A stretch of 22,378 nucleotides of DNA from a virus. This document shows positions 1 to 20,790 of this stretch, one piece after another (position 1 is the stretch's first letter; the number at the start of each line of letters is the position of its first letter). A model generated the notes under the pieces. That model ran no database searches. It was not told the origin of the DNA and saw only the letters and a list, made by a program, of their open reading frames with translations. The translations under genes and the position numbers were made by a program. The DNA is taken from positions 1-22,378 of IMG/VR virus record IMGVR_UViG_3300021225_000355, one strand, 5' to 3'.

Positions 1-1
1 C

Positions 2-1681
2 GACCCCACGAGCCACGGCGACGCGGTCACGCTGTTATACGACGCCTTAGCACCGGAGGACGGCGAAGAGGAAAAAGAATTACACGCCATTGAGTGGGGC
101 TTTGCCCATGGCTTAACGGCACCACTCGAAATCCCACGTCCACCCGTGCCACCCATGGAGAGCTTAGAGAGCCTTGACGAAATCTTCGGTACTGCCATCG
201 CCGAGACGACGCCGGACGTGGTGGCCGATACCAAAAGCGACGTTATCCCCAGCAATCCCGAAGTTATCCCCACCATTCACTTGACCGACCTTGGCAACGG
301 GCTGCGCTTTGTCGAAGCCGTCAAAGAGTACGTCTGCTATGTACCGGCGTGGGATAAGTGGATGGTGTGGAATGGCAAGTATTGGGAGGCGTCGGACGAC
401 GTGGTAATTCGCAAGGTCGCCCACGTCGTCGTACTTGAGATGTACAAATCAGCGGTCAAGGATAACGTGCTGGACAACGAGCTGGCAAAGTGGGCATTGA
501 AATCAGAGACGGCGGCGCGCATCAATGCAATGATTGAGAGCGCCCAGCCGTACCTCGTCGTTGACGTTGCCCGCTTCGATGCGCACCCCGATCACCTCAA
601 CGTTGATAACGGAATTGTCAGCCTCGAGCATGGCACAATTATCCCGCATGACCGCTCATGGTTTTTTACCAAGTGTCTCAGCACCGCCTACGACCCAAGC
701 GCCGACCGCACCGTGATTGATGCGTTTATGCAGACCATCACGGCGGGCGACTTGGAATTAACGCAGTACATCAAGCGCGCCGTGGGCTACTCGGCGACGG
801 GGCGCACCGATGAGCATTGCCTATTCTTTGCCTATGGCAATGGGAAAAATGGCAAATCAACGTTTATGAATATGCTGAGCATGGTCATGGGCGACTATGC
901 CACCACGACGAGCGTCGAAGCGCTCTTGGACGTCAACGCCAAGGGCGAGGGGGCGTCGCCGTACATGGCACGGCTTCCCGGCAAGCGCTTAGCCATGGCG
1001 CAGGAGATGCCCGAGGGACGGCGCATGAATGAGTCGTTAGTTAAGTCAATCACCGGGGGCGACCGCATCGCTACGCGTGGTCTGTACAAAGATGTGTTTG
1101 AGTTTACCCCGACACATACGCTGTGGGTATCGGGGAATCATAAGCCCCGCATCAATGGAAGCGATGATGGCATTTGGCGCCGACTTCGTATTTTGCCATT
1201 TACGGTATCCATCCCTGAGGGCGAACGCCGTGATAGCAGAGTGATCGAAGCGGAGTTCTATGCGCACCGCGCCGGTATTTTGCGGTGGATAATCGAGGGC
1301 GCACGGATGTGGTACAAGATGGGGCTCGGCTCATGTCGTGCCGTCGACACTGCAACGTCGGAATATCGCGGTGAAGAGGACGCCGTGGCGCGATTCATTG
1401 CAGAGCGGTGCGACCTTGCCCCCACAAAGTCGGTGAGCAAAGCGTTACTGTATGCGGCATGGCGGGAATGGGCCGAAGACGAAGGGGACAAAGTGTCCCT
1501 TGGCAAGTCACAGCGCTGGCTCCTTCGTCAGCTTGGCGACCGCTGGGCATGCGGACGTGGTGGCAATGGCGGAAGCGCAGTCATTGGCCTCGCGTTACGC
1601 CCAGACCATAGCGACGAGGATGAGTACTTTGCGCCGACGAAGTCAGACCGTGAGATTTTGCGAGAGATGCCGATGCAATAA
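2..1681 (+). CDS. D5/P4-family phage primase-helicase (5' end outside window)
   Basis: Phage replication protein coupling priming and SF3-type helicase activity at the fork. The frame is open from the first bases of the window with no stop, so the gene begins upstream; a GTG at 146 and an ATG at 155 are internal codons, not the likely start. A D5_N-like region covers about nt 300-800. A Walker A motif GNGKNGKST lies at nt 836-862. A Walker B-like stretch (RLAMAQEMPEG) follows near nt 980-1020, and a sensor-type LWVSGNHKPRI near nt 1120-1155. The C-terminal part (about nt 1385-1610, VARFIAERC through WLLRQLGDRW) looks like the winged-helix domain of P4-type primases. Family knowledge: such proteins form hexamers and often bind an origin. 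The gene ends inside the left arm of the inverted repeat at 1671-1774. Any N-terminal primase domain is not visible, so priming activity is inferred. Confidence 0.9.
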   Translation, partial: DPTSHGDAVTLLYDALAPEDGEEEKELHAIEWGFAHGLTAPLEIPRPPVPPMESLESLDEIFGTAIAETTPDVVADTKSDVIPSNPEVIPTIHLTDLGNGLRFVEAVKEYVCYVPAWDKWMVWNGKYWEASDDVVIRKVAHVVVLEMYKSAVKDNVLDNELAKWALKSETAARINAMIESAQPYLVVDVARFDAHPDHLNVDNGIVSLEHGTIIPHDRSWFFTKCLSTAYDPSADRTVIDAFMQTITAGDLELTQYIKRAVGYSATGRTDEHCLFFAYGNGKNGKSTFMNMLSMVMGDYATTTSVEALLDVNAKGEGASPYMARLPGKRLAMAQEMPEGRRMNESLVKSITGGDRIATRGLYKDVFEFTPTHTLWVSGNHKPRINGSDDGIWRRLRILPFTVSIPEGERRDSRVIEAEFYAHRAGILRWIIEGARMWYKMGLGSCRAVDTATSEYRGEEDAVARFIAERCDLAPTKSVSKALLYAAWREWAEDEGDKVSLGKSQRWLLRQLGDRWACGRGGNGGSAVIGLALRPDHSDEDEYFAPTKSDREILREMPMQ

Positions 1682-1774
1682 TGCACTAATAGTGCATTTT
1701 ACCCAAAGTTTTTCTAATTAATTTTCTATATAGGAACTTTTCCTAAAATGCACTATTAGTGCATTATTTCATCG
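1671..1774. repeat. AT-rich long inverted repeat with nested palindromes
   Basis: Arms 1671-1710 and 1735-1774 are reverse complements at 36 of 40 positions, with mismatches only at 1676 and 1702-1704. They enclose a 24-bp AT-rich centre (1711-1734). Each arm contains a 19-bp palindrome, AATGCACTA-N-TAGTGCATT, at 1680-1698 and 1747-1765. The left arm overlaps the last codons of the helicase gene. Possible roles, all inferred: replication origin or cruciform next to the helicase, a pair of operator sites for a dimeric repressor, or a bidirectional terminator (the first palindrome is followed by a short T run). The 104-bp size with 40-bp terminal inverted repeats also resembles a miniature mobile element, but no target-site duplication is visible. 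Confidence 0.85.
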
Positions 1775-1826
1775 CAGATACACGGAAAAAGCCCTAATCG
1801 CCACTACGTAAAAAAAGGAGTGACCT

Positions 1827-2270
1827 ATGTTTCTCACTGCGCCTACCATGATGCAATGCCTCGTCTGTCGTGGCCGCATCGATGCAAAGACACCGCATCC
1901 CCAGCTCTGCTTGGTCTGTCGAAGTAAGGGCGAGCGATCCCTGCTATCCACACTGCACCACGACGTCGACCGCTTGGCCAATGCGTGGGGCAAGCTCGTC
2001 ACACCCGAGCTTGAGCCACGCTTTACCAAGATGCTGGAAGCGGCGTCCGACCTTGACTTGCCGATGACCCGGTTTCGTCGTGACGATGCCATGACAAAGT
2101 TTGGGCAACGGGTGGCCAAGACCATCGAACAGCATGACGCCTTCGCCGCCTTGGTCAAGGCGTGGTGGATGCACCGCATCCGCAAAGATGACCTTCGCAG
2201 TCTTGAATTACAATTAGCTTGGGCAAAGATTCAGACAGAGGCAAGCCATGCGCCACAAAGCGAGTCTTGA
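1827..2270 (+). CDS. Small protein with paired CxxC motifs (possible zinc ribbon), unknown function
   Basis: This 147-residue protein is not recognised. ATG 1827 follows a strong Shine-Dalgarno (AAAAAAGGAG) with suitable spacing. Residues about 11-32 carry two CLVCR motifs (CLVCRGRID and, after a short proline-rich turn, CLVCRSKG). Four cysteines in this arrangement would suit a treble-clef or zinc-ribbon site. The rest looks helical and charged, without a membrane segment. It is the first gene after the inverted repeat and overlaps the VRR-NUC nuclease gene by 23 bp, so the two are probably co-translated and the product may act on nucleic acid. The function is inferred only from the cysteine pairs and the neighbourhood. 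Confidence 0.75.
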   Translation: MFLTAPTMMQCLVCRGRIDAKTPHPQLCLVCRSKGERSLLSTLHHDVDRLANAWGKLVTPELEPRFTKMLEAASDLDLPMTRFRRDDAMTKFGQRVAKTIEQHDAFAALVKAWWMHRIRKDDLRSLELQLAWAKIQTEASHAPQSES

Positions 2271-2526
2271 CGCAAACCACACCGAGATTGTGAGCCAGCT
2301 TCGTCACATCGGCGCCACGGTCGTTGACTTGGCCAAGGTCGGCAAGGGCTGCCCTGACCTGCTCGTCGGCTGGCGTGGTAAGACCTATTTGATGGAGATT
2401 AAGACCAAGACCGGCCACATGCGCACGACACAAGAACAGTTTTTTCGGAGTTGGACCGGCGGCCATATCGCCGTGGTACGAAGTTTCGACGACGCGTACA
2501 ATGTACTGACTATGGAGGGGCTATGA
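2248..2526 (+). CDS. VRR-NUC domain nuclease
   Basis: A compact 92-residue protein of the PD-(D/E)XK nuclease superfamily, VRR-NUC family. The core is visible: HIGATVVDLAKVGKGCPDLLVGWRGKTYLMEIKTKTG provides the catalytic aspartate (GCPDLLV) and the E-x-K motif (MEIKTK), followed by the QEQFFRSW helix typical of the family. Stand-alone VRR-NUC proteins are common in phage replication regions and are proposed to cleave branched DNA such as Holliday junctions or flaps. ATG 2248 sits within the end of the preceding gene and has a GAGG upstream. The TGA stop overlaps the next start (ATGA at 2523-2526), which suggests translational coupling. The family call is secure; the substrate is inferred. Confidence 0.85.
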   Translation: MRHKASLDANHTEIVSQLRHIGATVVDLAKVGKGCPDLLVGWRGKTYLMEIKTKTGHMRTTQEQFFRSWTGGHIAVVRSFDDAYNVLTMEGL

Positions 2527-2888
2527 TTGAACTAATGCTATACCTAGCGTGCAGCCTAGGCACCTGCCACGTCCAGCCGTTGATGATCACGCCGGAAGCC
2601 GTCGCCATTGCGACGTGTGAATCAGGCGACACCGTGACGCTTGGTACGTACTCAATGACCGCACGGAATCACCGCACCGGCGACGGTGGTGCGTGGCAAT
2701 TCAACGACAAAACCTACGTGTGGCTCAATGGCTACGACCACGCCGAGCTGGACACCCCGCAGAATCAATATGACACCTTCGTGTATCTGTGGGATGACGG
2801 CGCCGGCTGGCGTCATTGGGCATCGTCGAAACCATGCTGGACACAGTGGCTACGAATTAATAGCGAAGACAAGGCGGTGCTACGTTGA
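2523..2888 (+). CDS. Transglycosylase/Rpf-like peptidoglycan hydrolase
   Basis: This 121-residue protein resembles the resuscitation-promoting-factor/transglycosylase fold. The motif AIATCESGD places a candidate catalytic glutamate at residue 33, followed by a GDGGAWQFNDKTYVWLNG stretch like the G-x-x-QF-x-x-x-TW pattern of Rpf and lysozyme-like domains. Cys32 and the Cys in SSKPCW near the C-terminus could form the disulfide seen in Rpf proteins. The N-terminus is short and hydrophobic (MIELMLYLACSLG) and could be a weak export signal. I chose ATG 2523 over longer in-frame starts because GGAGG lies just upstream and it forms an ATGA overlap with the nuclease gene. It lies far from the lysis cassette, among replication genes, so it may act at entry or as an auxiliary lysin. 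Confidence 0.65.
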   Translation: MIELMLYLACSLGTCHVQPLMITPEAVAIATCESGDTVTLGTYSMTARNHRTGDGGAWQFNDKTYVWLNGYDHAELDTPQNQYDTFVYLWDDGAGWRHWASSKPCWTQWLRINSEDKAVLR

Positions 2889-3532
2889 ACACCGCCACGC
2901 TCATCGCCGTGACGATGCCCGAACAAGACCTCAGCGTCGAAGAATTCATCGTGTACTGCGCTCGTGTGTCCAATCCTGCCAACCAAGCCAACCACGCCAC
3001 CGCACCAAAGCTCATGCGCTATCTGATGACGCATGGGCATTGGTCGCCCTTCGAGATGGTGAGTGTGGTCATGGAGATTACGACGACCCGTGATATCGCA
3101 CGCCAAATCCTTCGGCACCGGAGCTTCAGCTTCCAAGAGTTTAGCCAGCGCTACGCCAACCCGACGGAAACGCTTGGCTTTGCGCTTCGTGAGGCACGGC
3201 TTCAGGACAGCGCCAACCGTCAAAACTCCATCGTCAGCACCGACCGGCAGACGTCGCTCACGTGGCAACAAATCCAAGACAACGTCCTCACCGAGGCAAA
3301 GCTTGGTTACGACGCCGCCTTGGCTATGGGCATCGCAAAAGAACAAGCCCGGGCCTTGCTTCCCGAAGGCTTGACGGTGTCTCGCCTCTACATGGCGGGG
3401 TCACTCCGCTCTTGGCTGCACTACTGCGACGTCCGCACCAAGGCCGACACCCAAGCCGAACATCGTGCGGTCGCAGAGTCGGCGTGGCAAATCATCATTG
3501 GGCTATGCCCATCATTGGAGAAAACAAAGTGA
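2885..3532 (+). CDS. thyX: Flavin-dependent thymidylate synthase ThyX
   Basis: Converts dUMP to dTMP using methylenetetrahydrofolate, FAD and NADPH. The ThyX signature RHR-x-x-S-x-Q-E-x-S-x-R-Y is complete at residues 77-90 (RHRSFSFQEFSQRY). The flanking HWSPFEMVSVVMEI and GLTVSRLYMAGSLRSWLHYCDVRT segments also fit the family, and 215 residues is normal length. The start is probably TTG 2885, overlapping the preceding TGA; an ATG at about 2915 would remove the first strand. It overlaps the dCTP deaminase gene through GTGA at 3529-3532, and the two form a nucleotide cassette that supplies dTMP during phage replication. No dUTPase is visible nearby. Confidence 0.95.
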   Translation: MNTATLIAVTMPEQDLSVEEFIVYCARVSNPANQANHATAPKLMRYLMTHGHWSPFEMVSVVMEITTTRDIARQILRHRSFSFQEFSQRYANPTETLGFALREARLQDSANRQNSIVSTDRQTSLTWQQIQDNVLTEAKLGYDAALAMGIAKEQARALLPEGLTVSRLYMAGSLRSWLHYCDVRTKADTQAEHRAVAESAWQIIIGLCPSLEKTK

Positions 3533-4083: not shown

Positions 4084-4301
4084 TGGTTACCACGCTTTTC
4101 CGTGCGTTGTTCAGACTGCGATGTAGGCACGTTGGAGGCGTGGTACACTTCGTCGCCTTGGCCACCCTTCGCCATGAGCGAGGTAGGCACTACCGCTACA
4201 ACGCACGGCCTGATGGCGTCATGGTGCCGATTGCGTCACGGCGAAGTCGCTACCGTCGCCGGGTGAAGTTTTTGCGCTGGGTAAAAGGAGGAATACGATG
4301 A
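4083..4301 (+). CDS. Small arginine-rich protein, unknown
   Basis: This 72-residue ORF overlaps the end of the dCTP deaminase gene. GGAG at 4074-4077 is five bases from ATG 4083 and only two from ATG 4080, so 4083 is the better start. The product is strongly basic, with many arginines, especially RRSRYRRRVKFLRW near the C-terminus, and a hydrophobic patch (GGVVHFVALATL) in the middle. No family is recognised. The charge suggests nucleic-acid contact, or a small membrane-proximal protein, but neither is demonstrated. Its TGA overlaps the next start (ATGA at 4298-4301). Confidence 0.6.
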   Translation: MVTTLFRALFRLRCRHVGGVVHFVALATLRHERGRHYRYNARPDGVMVPIASRRSRYRRRVKFLRWVKGGIR

Positions 4302-4408
4302 CCCACACCCTGCACCTCGGCATAGACATTACGCCGGAGTACGTAGCGATTGCACAGAAGCACATCGCCCATTATGCGGTCGAAACACCGCTAGAAGGAC
4401 TACTATGA
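4298..4408 (+). CDS. 36-residue small protein, unknown
   Basis: A very short ORF supported mainly by its signals. A perfect Shine-Dalgarno AAGGAGG (4285-4291) stands six bases before ATG 4298. The start overlaps the preceding TGA and its own stop overlaps the next ATG at 4405 (ATGA). The product begins MTHTLHLGIDITPEYVAIAQ and ends ETPLEGLL; it has no cysteines, no membrane segment and no recognised motif. It may be a genuine microprotein, or a leader whose translation couples expression of the coiled-coil gene that follows. Confidence 0.6.
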   Translation: MTHTLHLGIDITPEYVAIAQKHIAHYAVETPLEGLL

Positions 4409-5073
4409 GCCAGCCAATTCGTCTGCCAATCAATGCACCAAGCTACAGCGCCGGTGGGGCAAATTTCTACATCGACAAAACCGGCGCTATCTATCAGACA
4501 TGGGTGGGGCGCACCGTCGTCGGTGGTGACTGGGGAAGCCACGTCTACCGCACCGCCCCCGGCGCACCGTCGCAGCTCCTCTTTTTCCAGCCCGGTATCA
4601 ACGGCTACCTCGAAGTCATGAATAAGCAGTTATGGTTCGGCTACTGCGATGCCCGCGGCGCCCAATGGCGTCTACTCATTGACGGCTACATCGACCCAAG
4701 TGACACGCCGTCCAGCGCCGTGGTCAACGTCGATGAGGCGCAGGTCGCTGGGCTTAAGCAAAGTATTAGCACCGCTCAAGCGACGGCAGACCGCGCGAGT
4801 AGCACTGCAACTCGTGCCACCCAAACCGCAAACGATGCCAGTAACGATGTTCACAACTTGGCGGTCACCGTGGCGACATTGCAAGCCCAAGTCAATGCCC
4901 TGCAAGCACAAAGCCTGACGAAGTCGCAAGTCGAAGACATCGTTTGGGCAAAGATTTGGGACGTGAATTATCTGATTCGGCTTGGCTTTATCAACGGCAC
5001 ATCACCGTACCAGCAAGTCCAAGACTACCTCGTCGACCTTGCGACCTACATCCATCGCATCGTCAAACCGTGA
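4405..5073 (+). CDS. Coiled-coil phage protein, unknown
   Basis: This 222-residue protein is not recognised. Residues about 1-100 are rich in glycine and aromatics (SAGGANFYIDKTGAIYQTW, LLFFQPGINGYLEV) and look like a compact beta domain, possibly repeated. Residues about 110-170 form a helical, alanine/threonine/glutamine-rich stretch (ISTAQATADRASSTATRATQ through TLQAQVNALQAQ) typical of a trimeric coiled coil, and a small C-terminal domain follows. This plan suits a phage fibre or accessory virion protein, but no homologous family is visible and the location before the lysis cassette is unusual. ATG 4405 overlaps the preceding stop and has GAAGGA upstream. The stop is part of the repeated CGTGATATACTACGC motif. 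Confidence 0.75.
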   Translation: MSQPIRLPINAPSYSAGGANFYIDKTGAIYQTWVGRTVVGGDWGSHVYRTAPGAPSQLLFFQPGINGYLEVMNKQLWFGYCDARGAQWRLLIDGYIDPSDTPSSAVVNVDEAQVAGLKQSISTAQATADRASSTATRATQTANDASNDVHNLAVTVATLQAQVNALQAQSLTKSQVEDIVWAKIWDVNYLIRLGFINGTSPYQQVQDYLVDLATYIHRIVKP

Positions 5074-5192: not shown

Positions 5193-5696
5193 ATGCCATA
5201 CCCTGTCGATACTGTGCCCGCCCTCAGTCATGGCGGAACGCGTGCTATGCCACCCCAAGTTATTGTTCTGCATCACACCGGGTCAAGCGGCACACCACAA
5301 AGCCAAATTACGTACCTGCGCAGCAATCCGCGTGGGGTGTCAATTCACACTATCATTGCCAAGGACGGACGACGCACCCGCATGGTAGACGACGACCACG
5401 TCGCCTTTCACGTTGGCTATAGCGTCATTGGCAGCTTAGGCAATCGCAATCCCAATGCGATGTCACTGGGCATCGAGATTATGAACAGCGGGTCGAAGTC
5501 TGTGCCCGATCCCTATCCGCATAGCCAAGTGGACAGCACCGCCGAGCAGGTAAGCATCTGGCTAAAGAAGTACCCAAGCATACAGATGATTACGCCGCAC
5601 GCCGGGATTGATACGCAGGGCAAATACGACCCCTATGCTTTCCCGTGGGATGTCTTTTGGAAATTACTCAGTGTACACATGGGGGTAACAGGATGA
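5193..5696 (+). CDS. N-acetylmuramoyl-L-alanine amidase (Amidase_2 endolysin)
   Basis: Cleaves the amide bond between MurNAc and L-alanine in peptidoglycan. The 167-residue protein is a single Amidase_2/PGRP-type catalytic domain. The first zinc ligand lies in IVLHHTG (His27/28), His52 follows in VSIHTII, and near the C-terminus TPHAGIDTQGKYDP supplies His136, Lys144 and Asp146, matching the ligand-lysine-ligand arrangement of T7 lysozyme-like enzymes. No signal peptide or cell-wall-binding domain is present, so release would depend on the holin encoded downstream. A perfect AGGAGG at 5183-5188 precedes ATG 5193. The stop overlaps the next ATG (ATGA at 5693-5696). Confidence 0.92.
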   Translation: MPYPVDTVPALSHGGTRAMPPQVIVLHHTGSSGTPQSQITYLRSNPRGVSIHTIIAKDGRRTRMVDDDHVAFHVGYSVIGSLGNRNPNAMSLGIEIMNSGSKSVPDPYPHSQVDSTAEQVSIWLKKYPSIQMITPHAGIDTQGKYDPYAFPWDVFWKLLSVHMGVTG

Positions 5697-6493: not shown

Positions 6494-7604
6494 TCCTGCG
6501 CGCTTTCGCATGTTCATCGGCGGTCGTGGCAGTGGCAAAACACGAGCCGGCGCCGTGGAGGCATTGCGTCAAGCGGAGGGGACGACGGGGCTCATCATTG
6601 CCCCAACGTACCCGATGCTCAAACTTGGCGCCATGGAAACCATCCTGAGCCTTGTCGCATCGGCTGGCATCGCGACGGCGTGGAATAAGTCAGACAAAGA
6701 GCTGCGCTTGCTGGGCAATCGCACCATCATCTTTCGTAGTGCCGATAATCCCGACGCCTTGCGTGGTGCCAACGTGTCGTGGCTATGGTTAGACGAAGCG
6801 GCGATGATGCCAGACGATGTGTGGCCAACCGCCATTGCGACACTTCGCAGGGCGCCGGGTCGGGCATGGGTCACCACGACGCCACGGGGTAAGAATTGGC
6901 TGTACGACGTCTGGCATCGTGGCGACGCTGACTACACCGTGACGCAGGGCAAGACCACGGATAATCCGTATCTGCCCAGTCACTTCGTGACCACGCTCAA
7001 AGAGTCTATGACGTCCGAGATGTATCGCCAAGAAGTCGAAGGCTCATTCATTGATCCCGTAGGCGCAATGTTTCGTCGACAGTGGTTCAGCGTCGTTGAC
7101 CGTGCGCCGCTTGGCCTCAAGTGGTCACGTTACTGGGACCTTGCCGCATCAACGAAGACCTCCGCAGACTACACCGCATCGGTGCGAGTGGCACTGCATG
7201 ACGGCGTGATATACATCGCCGACGGCATCCACCTGCGCGCCGAGTGGCCAGACGTTCGCAAAGTCATCACCACCACGATGCGGAGCGAAGCCGACACCAC
7301 GCACGGCATCGAAGAGGCATTGCACGGCCTCGCTGCCGTCCAAGAGTTACGCCGTGACCCTGCGCTGGCCAATGTGTCATTTCGAGGAATCAGAGTCGAC
7401 AAAGACAAGCAAAGTCGGGCAATGCCATGGGCGGCGCGGGCGGAGGGTGGCGCAGTCAAGATTGTGCAAGGGCAATGGGTGAAAACGTTTTTAGATGAGG
7501 TCGTCGCCTTCCCCAGTGGAAGCCACGACGACTATGTAGACGCAGTGTCAGGAGCTGTGATGATGGTGAGTAAACCAAAGTTTGACTGGGGGTGGACATC
7601 GTGA
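6384..7604 (+). CDS. terL: Terminase large subunit
   Basis: ATP-driven packaging motor and nuclease that fills proheads with DNA. Counting from ATG 6384, Walker A is GGRGSGKT (residues 46-53), Walker B is WLWLDEAAMM with Asp137 and Glu138, and TTTPRGKNWLYD fits the coupling motif. The RNase H-like nuclease begins at RYWDLAAS (Asp252), and its distal acidic motif is HDDYVDAVSG (381-390). At 406 residues it is at the short end of the family but complete. ATG 6384 has AGGG nine bases upstream and leaves a normal lead-in (QRKFWADPARFRMFIGG); ATG 6510 is too late. The stop overlaps the portal start as GTGA. Confidence 0.93.
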   Translation: MSLRPLPLPTTLSTSVSPPVTIRHTTQTIAQRKFWADPARFRMFIGGRGSGKTRAGAVEALRQAEGTTGLIIAPTYPMLKLGAMETILSLVASAGIATAWNKSDKELRLLGNRTIIFRSADNPDALRGANVSWLWLDEAAMMPDDVWPTAIATLRRAPGRAWVTTTPRGKNWLYDVWHRGDADYTVTQGKTTDNPYLPSHFVTTLKESMTSEMYRQEVEGSFIDPVGAMFRRQWFSVVDRAPLGLKWSRYWDLAASTKTSADYTASVRVALHDGVIYIADGIHLRAEWPDVRKVITTTMRSEADTTHGIEEALHGLAAVQELRRDPALANVSFRGIRVDKDKQSRAMPWAARAEGGAVKIVQGQWVKTFLDEVVAFPSGSHDDYVDAVSGAVMMVSKPKFDWGWTS

Positions 7605-9613
7605 CTATCAATTATCCCGGATGGATGCAAAGCATGTCACGCAGTGGGCGCATTGCGACGGCGACGGATGCCTACGAAGTGGTGCCGATGTTGTACCGCG
7701 CCGTCAATCTGCGCTGTGACGCAATCAGCACGGTGCCCTACACATTGACCCGACGTGGTGTTGCCGTGGATTGGCCATGGCGACAATCACCGTCGGAACT
7801 TATCAAAGCGACGGAAAGATCTTTGTTGCTCACCGGTGGCGCCTATTGGTACCGCGTCATCAATGGGCGTACTATGACCGGCTTTGTCGTACTTAATCCC
7901 ACGACGATGACGGTGAACTTCGAGCCGACCAAAGCGACGCTCGAAAACCCGTATAGTGGCGCACTGTTTACACAGACACAACTTGGTAAAATCTATGGGC
8001 CCTGGGACATCAACAACATCGTGTATTTTCGTGAGCCGTCGTATCGTGACGACATCTTGCCCGGTCTTGCACCGGCACAAGTCGCTTTGCAAAGTAGCCA
8101 GCTGGGTCATTACCTCGAGCGCTTTACCTCCGCCTTCTTCGAGGGTGGTGCCCAACCGGTCATGGTGATGAACTTACCCGAGTCCATGGACGACGCAGAG
8201 TTCGCACGATTTCGGGGCGAATTCTCAACACGCATCAGCGGAGTGGCCAACGCCTTCCGCAGTCTCTTTGTGCGTAGCCCAGAACTCAAAGTACAAAAGG
8301 TGACTCCCGACATCAATACGATGATGTTACCTGAGCTACAAGAGCGGGTCATCACATCTATCGCCATGACCCTCGGCGTCCCGCGCACCATGCTCGAAGC
8401 CAGCGCCGCCAATTACGCAACGGCAGACAGCGACCGACAAAGTTTTTGGCGAGAAACCGTTGTACCACGGCTTGGCCTCTATGAACAGATTCTCAATAAT
8501 CAACTCCTTGGCCCACTTGGCTATGAGATGCGTTTCAATCCGGAGATGCTTGACGTCATGCAGGCCGACGAAGCCAACCGCGCCGACTCTTTGCTCAAGC
8601 TCACACAGGCAGGGCTTCCCTTGCCGGATGCAATGCGCATCCTTGGCTATGACGGTGTTGACGAGATGTTTTTAACACCGACGACCGAAGCGCCACCAAG
8701 TGAATTACCACTGGACACCGCACCGCAGGAGCCGACGCCGATCATCGGCGCCACAACGCCACCCCAGCCCGACACCGCTACACGCAGTGTAGATTGGGCG
8801 TTACTTACAAAAAAATTAGAACGGCGCATCAAGGCAGGGAAGACACCGCAGTGTAACTTCGATAGCGCCGTTATCTCTGCCGACGAAGTAAAGTCAGTGA
8901 TGGCACGGCTTCGCGATGACATGACGGTGCATGAGGCGTTGCATGTCGTCGAAGAAGTCAAAGCGGTCGACGATATGACCAAAGACGAGCGACGGATATA
9001 CAACGAACTCGTGCCGGAGTTTGAAAAGCGTGGCAGTGCATGGGTGCGCAAAATCATGCGCAATGAGACCGTAGACCCGACCTTGGCGGACGTCGTCGCC
9101 CCGGTGTTAAACCGTGAATTGTCCAAGGCCGCCCAGCAACGCATCGACGAAATTAGCACCGACATCGGCGTGGGCTCCGATGATGCGACAAATGACCGCG
9201 TGGTAGATTGGCTCGTTGACTACGTGCCCCTCGAGACCCGACTCATTGACGCTACGACCGCAGAGCGAATTAAGAAGGTCATCGACGCCTACCGCCAAAC
9301 CGAGGGCATGACGGCGCAGGACGTCGCCGCCTTGCTCCAGCCTGCGGTAGACCCTGCCCGCGCGTTGATGATTGCCCGCACGGAGATTGTCAGGGCACAA
9401 ACGCAGGCGGGCATCATTTACCAGGGCTACCTCAAAGAAAAAGGACTCACCTACGAGCGCATCTGGGTGACGGAGCGCGACGAGATGGTGCGTAAGTGCC
9501 CCATCTGTTACCCCTTGGATGGGCGCAAAGAGTCCGAAGGCTGGGATGGCTACGAACCACCGGCGCATCCGAATTGTCGCTGTGCGACGGCACTGAGACT
9601 CGTAAGGGATTAA
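7601..9613 (+). CDS. Portal protein fused to MuF-type minor head protein
   Basis: A 670-residue fusion. The N-terminal part (about 1-370) is an HK97-type portal: YEVVPMLYRAVNLRCDAIST, YWYRVINGRTMTGFVVLNP, IVYFREPSYRDDILPGLAP and the late MTLGVPRTMLEAS fit this family, which forms the dodecameric DNA-entry ring. A proline/threonine-rich linker (about 365-390) leads to a helical region. The C-terminus (about 560-670) is MuF-like: ALMIARTEIVRAQTQAG, then CPICYPLDGR and PPAHPNCRCATAL, the typical CPxC...HPNCRC pattern. GTG 7601 is preferred to GTG 7592 because it forms GTGA with the terminase stop and has a GGGGGTGGA Shine-Dalgarno. These functions are usually separate genes; no stop or frameshift divides them here. 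Confidence 0.9.
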   Translation: MTINYPGWMQSMSRSGRIATATDAYEVVPMLYRAVNLRCDAISTVPYTLTRRGVAVDWPWRQSPSELIKATERSLLLTGGAYWYRVINGRTMTGFVVLNPTTMTVNFEPTKATLENPYSGALFTQTQLGKIYGPWDINNIVYFREPSYRDDILPGLAPAQVALQSSQLGHYLERFTSAFFEGGAQPVMVMNLPESMDDAEFARFRGEFSTRISGVANAFRSLFVRSPELKVQKVTPDINTMMLPELQERVITSIAMTLGVPRTMLEASAANYATADSDRQSFWRETVVPRLGLYEQILNNQLLGPLGYEMRFNPEMLDVMQADEANRADSLLKLTQAGLPLPDAMRILGYDGVDEMFLTPTTEAPPSELPLDTAPQEPTPIIGATTPPQPDTATRSVDWALLTKKLERRIKAGKTPQCNFDSAVISADEVKSVMARLRDDMTVHEALHVVEEVKAVDDMTKDERRIYNELVPEFEKRGSAWVRKIMRNETVDPTLADVVAPVLNRELSKAAQQRIDEISTDIGVGSDDATNDRVVDWLVDYVPLETRLIDATTAERIKKVIDAYRQTEGMTAQDVAALLQPAVDPARALMIARTEIVRAQTQAGIIYQGYLKEKGLTYERIWVTERDEMVRKCPICYPLDGRKESEGWDGYEPPAHPNCRCATALRLVRD

Positions 9614-9615
9614 CC

Positions 9616-10071
9616 ATGGCAACTGACTTTGAAATCATCGGACGCATAAGCACCGCACAGATTCTCGACGCCATGCGCACGGTCACGCTAGGCTATGCAC
9701 AGGAAGTCGCCGGTATTTTGCTCACGGACAAACCGCCGCCACCCCGCGCCGGCGCACAGGTCTATAAGTCTGCAAAGCAACGGCGCTTCGTCATGGCCAA
9801 TATCGCCAACGGTAATATTAGCTTCCCCTACGTCCGTGGTCGTGGTAATGGACTGCGAGGAAGTCAGAGTCTCTCACAGTCATATCGCACCAACCTCGAC
9901 GGAGACAACGCCGTGTTGACGTCGTCTGCCAGCTATGCACCCTATGTCGTGGGCGACCAACAAGCACCGATACACCAAGGGCGCTGGACAACGGCGATGC
10001 AAGCCGCCGACCGGGTCAAACAAGACGGCGCATTGCAAGTTATCCTCACCAAGACAATGGAGGCGCTGTAA
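9616..10071 (+). CDS. Putative head-tail connector/minor head protein
   Basis: This 151-residue protein lies between portal-MuF and the scaffold-like gene. Residues about 75-130 contain RGRGNGLRGSQSLSQSYR, then SYAPYVVGDQQAPIHQGRW, which resembles the YAPYV-x-G...H-x-GRW signature of small phage morphogenesis proteins, some annotated as HK97 gp10-like connectors. The N-terminal region is helical with a proline-rich break (KPPPPRAG). ATG 9616 follows AAGGGA, and the stop overlaps the next start (TAATG). The position suits a neck or head component, but the exact role is inferred. Confidence 0.6.
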   Translation: MATDFEIIGRISTAQILDAMRTVTLGYAQEVAGILLTDKPPPPRAGAQVYKSAKQRRFVMANIANGNISFPYVRGRGNGLRGSQSLSQSYRTNLDGDNAVLTSSASYAPYVVGDQQAPIHQGRWTTAMQAADRVKQDGALQVILTKTMEAL

Positions 10072-20556: not shown

Positions 20557-20601
20557 GCACCGCGCCCCCAGCATTGTCGACAGATGCTGGGGGCGCGGTG
20601 C
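20557..20601. terminator. 18-bp perfect GC-rich hairpin after late operon
   Basis: Arms 20557-20574 and 20584-20601 pair perfectly around a nine-base loop that contains the palindrome TGTCGACA. No proper T run follows (GCAGTTATTTAG). It lies 57 bases after the last structural gene and probably ends late transcription, as an I-shaped terminator or with help from a protein factor. Confidence 0.75.
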
Positions 20602-20686: not shown

Positions 20687-20749
20687 TCAAATTGGTCTCA
20701 AATTGCTCAAAAAACTACTTGACAAGTCAATTAATAGTGTAGTATACTA
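20687..20749 (+). promoter_or_regulatory. Sigma-70-type promoter with two palindromes and upstream repeats
   Basis: TTGACA (20719-20724) and TATACT (20743-20748) stand 18 bp apart, a strong match to consensus. Palindrome TTGAC-AA-GTCAA (20719-20730) covers the -35 and TAGTATACTA (20740-20749) covers the -10, so repressor binding is plausible. Just upstream, TCAAATTG occurs at 20687 and 20698 (11 bp apart) with a partial third copy at 20707, in AT-rich DNA. It would drive the small-gene block from 20791. Confidence 0.75.
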
Positions 20750-20790
20750 AGGTCAGTTAGGAAGCAGTAGCACAGAAAGCGACGAACACC

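Follow-up and report, generated by a model that had tools for sequence, protein, structure and literature searches.

In Streptococcus phage Sfi21, a 302-bp region termed 'PER' is reported to act as a replication origin and, in multicopy, to protect against phages (PMC6356513); in the sequence record, the label 'origin of replication, 302 bp non-coding region, phage inhibitory sequence' stands immediately downstream of a D5-type gene. The helicases of the SaPI (Rep/PriRep) and SCCmec (Cch2) elements use a C-terminal domain to bind iterons located 3' of the genes that encode them, and these self-loading helicases apparently do so as two hexamers (PMC7581432). Replication of the archaeal plasmid pRN1 depends on a 100-bp stem-loop immediately downstream of orf904, a gene encoding a prim/pol-SF3 helicase-winged helix protein; this structure has a 21-nt stem and a 58-nt loop, and within its family the sequence is poorly conserved while the symmetry is conserved (PMC4234260). 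The same element has been predicted for the Bordetella phages BIP-1 and BPP-1 (PMC4234260). In P4, the crr site, made up of 8-bp type-1 iterons in both orientations, lies 3' of the gene for alpha, a protein with a winged-helix origin-binding domain.

Here we analyse an IMG/VR fragment of 22,378 bases (hereafter the window) from a tailed phage that encodes a terminase, a portal, a major head protein, a tape measure and tail genes, and in which a strong inverted repeat directly follows a D5/SF3 primase-helicase gene. We computed the anatomy of this repeat, its fixed position, the symmetry of its arms despite sequence turnover, the co-exchange of the arms with the helicase C-terminus, the fold of that C-terminus and the match of this anatomy to a phage origin annotated as such. 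Judged from these comparisons of sequence, the repeat is very probably the helicase-binding replication origin of the phage, a reading to which we assign a probability of roughly 0.87. The element would join a known origin type represented by Sfi21, P4, SaPI and pRN1, and its most noteworthy aspect is the apparent exchange between phages of an origin along with a DNA-binding domain.

Anatomy of the repeat

A repeat search of the window returned two 40-nt arms, at 1671-1710 and 1735-1774, of which 36 of 40 positions (90%) are complementary across a 24-nt spacer. The sequence-only reading had described this structure as an inverted repeat built from two 19-bp palindromes, and the description holds: its score of 30 makes it the strongest inverted repeat in the window, where every other reaches at most 12, and it was not matched by chance, since a score of 14 was attained by none of 180 dinucleotide shuffles and none of 180 random windows of related loci. 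The accompanying claim that each arm is a near-perfect palindrome applies to the inner 19 bp only, the whole 40-nt arm not being palindromic. The left palindrome, AATGCACTA-A-TAGTGCATT, occupies 1680-1698 and comprises two presumed helicase-binding half-sites (1680-1688 and 1690-1698); the right, AATGCACTA-T-TAGTGCATT, occupies 1747-1765 and likewise comprises two presumed half-sites. With 3 mismatches allowed these two palindromes are the sole matches in the 22-kb window (chance expectation 0.00), and the search of the rest of the phage contig that had been proposed found no dispersed copies.

Beyond the palindromes lie degraded outer half-sites in direct orientation, ATGCAATA at 1673-1680 on the plus strand and the complement of ATGAAATA at 1765-1772, the latter motif being read on the minus strand; in three relatives (L006, L007 and L008) the third half-site unit on the left side is intact. 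The half-site AATGCACTA is present in four copies and two degraded copies, arranged as two sets around an AT-rich core, and each arm is more aptly regarded as a short series of 8-9 bp units. The left palindrome begins within the helicase stop codon, TAA 1679-1681, which lies inside the left arm as had been noted. The core (1699-1746), a presumed DNA unwinding element, has 23% G+C and contains a pyrimidine-rich TTTTTCTA...TTTTC stretch and an inner inverted repeat, AAAGTT/AACTTT. The description of the region as AT-rich in a GC-rich genome is borne out by a G+C content of 29% for 1671-1774 vs 57% for the whole window. The next gene, an open reading frame on the plus strand at 1827-2270, encodes a small CxxC (zinc-ribbon-like) protein and is not part of the candidate origin.

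The exact palindrome was found in IMG/VR in two relatives (L004 and L005) and in one unrelated AT-rich viral contig (L003), where the same 19-mer sits at 7571-7605 within a longer palindrome (GTATAATGCACTATTAGTGCATTATAC) upstream of a small ORF; this last copy is probably due to chance or convergence. A BLASTN comparison of window positions 1-2600 with cultured phages gave no matches.

The helicase gene and its C-terminal domain

The gene preceding the repeat (2-1681, plus strand, its 5' end cut by the contig) encodes the presumed origin-binding initiator. Its assignment to the P4/D5 helicases in the sequence-only reading is confirmed by Pfam matches to D5_N (1.9e-27) and DUF5906 (3.5e-11), with Pox_D5 slightly below the cut-off, and by a PHROG match to DNA primase/helicase; the repeat does lie directly 3' of it. 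The SaPI5 primase-helicase (PDB 7ola) is a relative in both sequence and structure. Full-length relatives have ~790 residues, and a model of one of them (L013) matches ASFV PrimPol as well as 7ola.

AlphaFold modelled the last 130 residues of the window helicase as a winged helix at moderate confidence (pLDDT 70), and the presumed iteron-binding domain is assigned to 1379-1678 on the plus strand. The model aligned with RFX DNA-binding domains (Z 9.0) and with the P4 origin-binding domain 1ka8 (Z 7.3, 74 residues, 2.6 A), scores that are moderate, with other winged helices close behind. The modelled fold thus suggests that the helicase carries a C-terminal winged-helix DNA-binding domain.

Comparison with described origins

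Run on Sfi21, the same detector returned mirrored iterons, TTTAGTTACTTAGTTAC / GTAACTAAGTAACTAAA (of the TTAGTTACTTAGTTAC type), around a 71-bp AT-rich core, a layout like that of the window element. The gene preceding the Sfi21 origin carries Pox_D5 and DUF5906, a class that it has in common with the window helicase. The two systems differ in that the Sfi21 iteron sequence is unrelated, its primase is encoded on a separate gene and its helicase is only 22% identical; unlike the Sfi21 origin, the window element contains a palindrome in each of its arms, and it is shorter.

The SaPI and SCCmec elements also have iterons just 3' of the helicase gene, a likeness drawn from PMC7581432 and from the protein rather than from DNA, although these are staphylococcal chromosomal islands whereas the window derives from a tailed phage. 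The group to which the window belongs shares with pRN1 arms of ~20 nt and a loop of ~60 nt 3' of a replication gene, with symmetry kept without sequence; the pRN1 element, however, has been read as a stem-loop without iterons (PMC4234260), whereas the arms in the window are composed of iterons. In one relative (L006), a CopG-type ribbon-helix-helix gene at 3132-3311 overlaps the helicase start, and the order of this gene, the helicase and the downstream repeat resembles the pRN1 layout of repressor gene (orf56), replication gene and origin. P4 crr resembles the window element, and the winged-helix domain of alpha corresponds to that modelled for the window helicase, but P4 has two separate sites (crr at 4291-4590 and ori at 9086-9809) and a Toprim primase. 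No second iteron site of the P4 type was found in the 22-kb fragment, which is an incomplete genome.

The same anatomy in relatives

A profile scan with the helicase yielded 80 related loci. The sequence-only reading would have been weakened by absence of the repeat from close relatives with an intact helicase gene, and the opposite was seen: an inverted repeat scoring at least 12 lies no more than 220 bp from the helicase stop in 33 of the 37 members of the window's clade, and three of the four members below this cut-off still have imperfect arms (scores 10-11.5). Comparable repeats adjoin the helicase gene in 70% of 60 relatives kept after dereplication, the most distant being about 25-30% identical, whereas random windows from these loci and shuffles reached this strength in 0.6% of cases each; none of 23 other intergenic gaps reached the cut-off. 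About 30% of distant relatives are without a strong inverted repeat within 300 bp of the helicase.

Arm sequences change from clade to clade, while mirrored arms and an AT-rich core directly 3' of the helicase stop are kept in most. Over 59 loci, the median arm match was 16.5 within a locus vs 4.0 between loci. Tandem direct repeats with a period of 8-11 bp occur in 46% of left arms (vs 1.4% of shuffles), and the loop measures 58-75 nt in many loci. In L008 all four half-sites have changed, from AATGCACTA to AGTGCACTA, and the cores of the window's clade follow a loose consensus, AAGTTTTTCTA..TTTTCTCATGTAG..ACTTTcc.AAAA. Mirrored iterons 3' of primase/helicase genes were also found in Acidithiobacillus phage AcaML1 and in the Mycobacterium phages Adephagia and Marcoliusprime.

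Two further arrangements were observed. A scan of a genome collection with the helicase profile gave a single, distant match, in a Chitinivibrionales MAG (L142), where mirrored GTGATTAAAGTGATTAAGTG iterons lie from position 5258 onwards, 3' of the distant D5 helicase, in a possible prophage or island. In L041 (3035-3310), and likewise in L044, two tandem origin-like units with different iterons (GTACGATGGTACGATTGTG vs TTTAAAATGGGAGTTTG) and the same core type follow one helicase gene, and the second iteron set is absent from every other locus retrieved; the tandem units may represent an older and a newer origin, or one of them may serve another initiator.

Exchange of the arms together with the helicase C-terminus

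The relatives L055 and L056 (the same contigs as L092 and L093) are ~98% identical until 218 nt before the helicase stop and again from 131 nt beyond it; between these points the last ~72 helicase residues and the iterons differ, while the DNA before the helicase C-terminus is ~98-100% identical over at least 2.4 kb. A second pair, L119 and L123, is 96% identical upstream and 94% downstream, compared with 61% in the C-terminus and 45% in the repeat, and divergence is concentrated likewise in L121 and L136 (repeat 66%, C-terminus 86%, outside 96% identity). Conversely, L093 and L099 have an identical C-terminus and similar iterons and differ around them. An assembly artefact is an unlikely source of the L055/L056 difference, as both reading frames are open, the two C-terminus classes recur on separate contigs (L097 and L099; L100, L101 and L105) and, within each iteron set, the left and right sides match.

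Iteron similarity was also correlated with C-terminal identity in two clades, with partial rank correlations, given the rest of the helicase, of 0.30 (p=0.006) and 0.18 (p=0.018); for the clade that includes the window the partial correlation is weak, and there the similarity of the iterons tends to track the rest of the helicase too (0.13, p=0.054). The simplest reading of these patterns is that the helicase C-terminal domain binds the arms, and the co-exchange and correlation in relatives support iterons that would be specific for the cognate helicase C-terminus. The co-exchange also speaks against the arms being read by a protein that regulates the downstream gene.

The less expected part of these observations is how fast, and in what way, the element changes: some nearly identical phages differ almost only in the DNA-binding domain of the initiator and its origin. 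We tentatively propose, at somewhat less than even odds, that in D5-helicase phages the helicase C-terminal DNA-binding domain and the adjacent origin form one specificity cassette, which recombination turns over and exchanges much more rapidly than the flanking DNA; the pRN1-type 'stem-loop' and SaPI-type iteron origins would then be of one kind. By analogy, cassette turnover may perhaps be driven by competition with co-resident phages or satellites, or by escape from origin decoys, the latter being proposed because cells that carry origin DNA in multicopy are protected from Sfi21-type phages (PMC6356513). The L055/L056 and L119/L123 pairs amount to natural domain swaps that bear on initiator-origin specificity and on the reason for its change.

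Putative mechanism of initiation

If the repeat is an origin, the winged-helix C-terminus of the D5/SF3 primase-helicase would bind the 8-9 bp half-sites of both arms. The mirror symmetry of the arms would bring two helicase assemblies (hexamer rings) onto the DNA head to head, with the AT-rich core between them. The loaded helicases would melt this core, primers could come from the protein's own primase domain, and two diverging forks would lead to bidirectional replication. A GC-skew minimum had been suggested as a check: near 1.7 kb the skew changes little and with the wrong sign, the window contains no clear switch, and skew is greater on the right than on the left in 72 of 101 loci overall, evidence that we consider not decisive. 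As the contig is a genome fragment, the picture of one origin covers 22 kb only, and a second origin may lie outside it. The repeat and helicase would give an uncultivated phage group a concrete candidate origin/initiator pair, and they suggest a rule for D5-helicase phages, in which an origin would be sought immediately downstream of the helicase gene, as an AT-rich core between mirrored iterons.

Alternative roles of the repeat

Of the roles that the sequence-only reading had put forward (an origin, a cooperative operator pair or a miniature insertion), the origin is supported by synteny with the helicase gene, co-exchange with its DNA-binding domain, a layout like that of the Sfi21 origin and resemblance to P4 crr. 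The last of these has a precedent that bears on function: P4 splits the two tasks exactly, with a replication-required crr next to alpha and the start at ori about 4.5 kb away, and by analogy the window element could be a crr-like site, an essential or stimulatory accessory to which the helicase binds while replication starts elsewhere. We regard this as unlikely, because the element has an arm-flanked core, as at the annotated Sfi21 origin, and because the palindrome does not recur elsewhere in the 22-kb contig, itself incomplete, which has no further strong inverted repeat either. A cooperative operator pair, in which a repressor, perhaps a ribbon-helix-helix protein encoded beside the helicase, binds both palindromes and regulates either the operon that follows or that of the helicase, would account for 19-bp palindromes with TGCA ends and centres 67 bp apart, for the position of the repeat ahead of the next gene and for the CopG-type gene that overlaps the helicase start in L006. 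Such a repressor is nevertheless improbable as the main reader of the arms: in L055 and L056 the upstream DNA is almost unchanged while the arms have been replaced, which makes an upstream-encoded regulator unlikely, change in the arms goes along with change in the C-terminus of the helicase itself, tandem direct iterons take the place of palindromes in many relatives, and a scan restricted to sigma-70-type promoters found none in 1400-2000. An operator role may still be a secondary function of the element.

The folding energy of the strand (-44.8 kcal/mol, z -13) and the location of the repeat after a stop codon are what an RNA structure in the transcript after the helicase gene, whether a terminator, an attenuator or a processing hairpin, would lead one to expect. 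An RNA stem would, however, tolerate G.U pairs, and the arm mismatches over 59 loci comprise 38 G.U vs 35 A.C; the lack of a wobble preference suggests that selection acts on DNA and not RNA, although a DNA cruciform would likewise show no G.U excess. Direct iterons inside the arms, unexpected for a hairpin, favour duplex binding sites over a folded stem-loop. With neither a U-tract after the right arm, where no terminator was called, nor a match to an Rfam family, an RNA role seems very improbable. The miniature inverted-repeat insertion (MITE) is hardly credible: the element is indeed short and AT-rich with terminal inverted arms, but it occupies the same position in nearly all relatives with a different sequence, it is single-copy in the contig, and no target duplication was seen. 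The preferred reading thus remains that of a helicase-binding origin.

Other features of the window

Towards the far end of the window, at 20557-20601, lies a strong hairpin of high G+C content (GCACCGCGCCCC ... GGGGCGCGGTGC); after it comes a stretch of 48% G+C that contains TTGACA-N18-TATACT (about 20716-20750). From sequence, this is likely a terminator and then a promoter ahead of the last genes.
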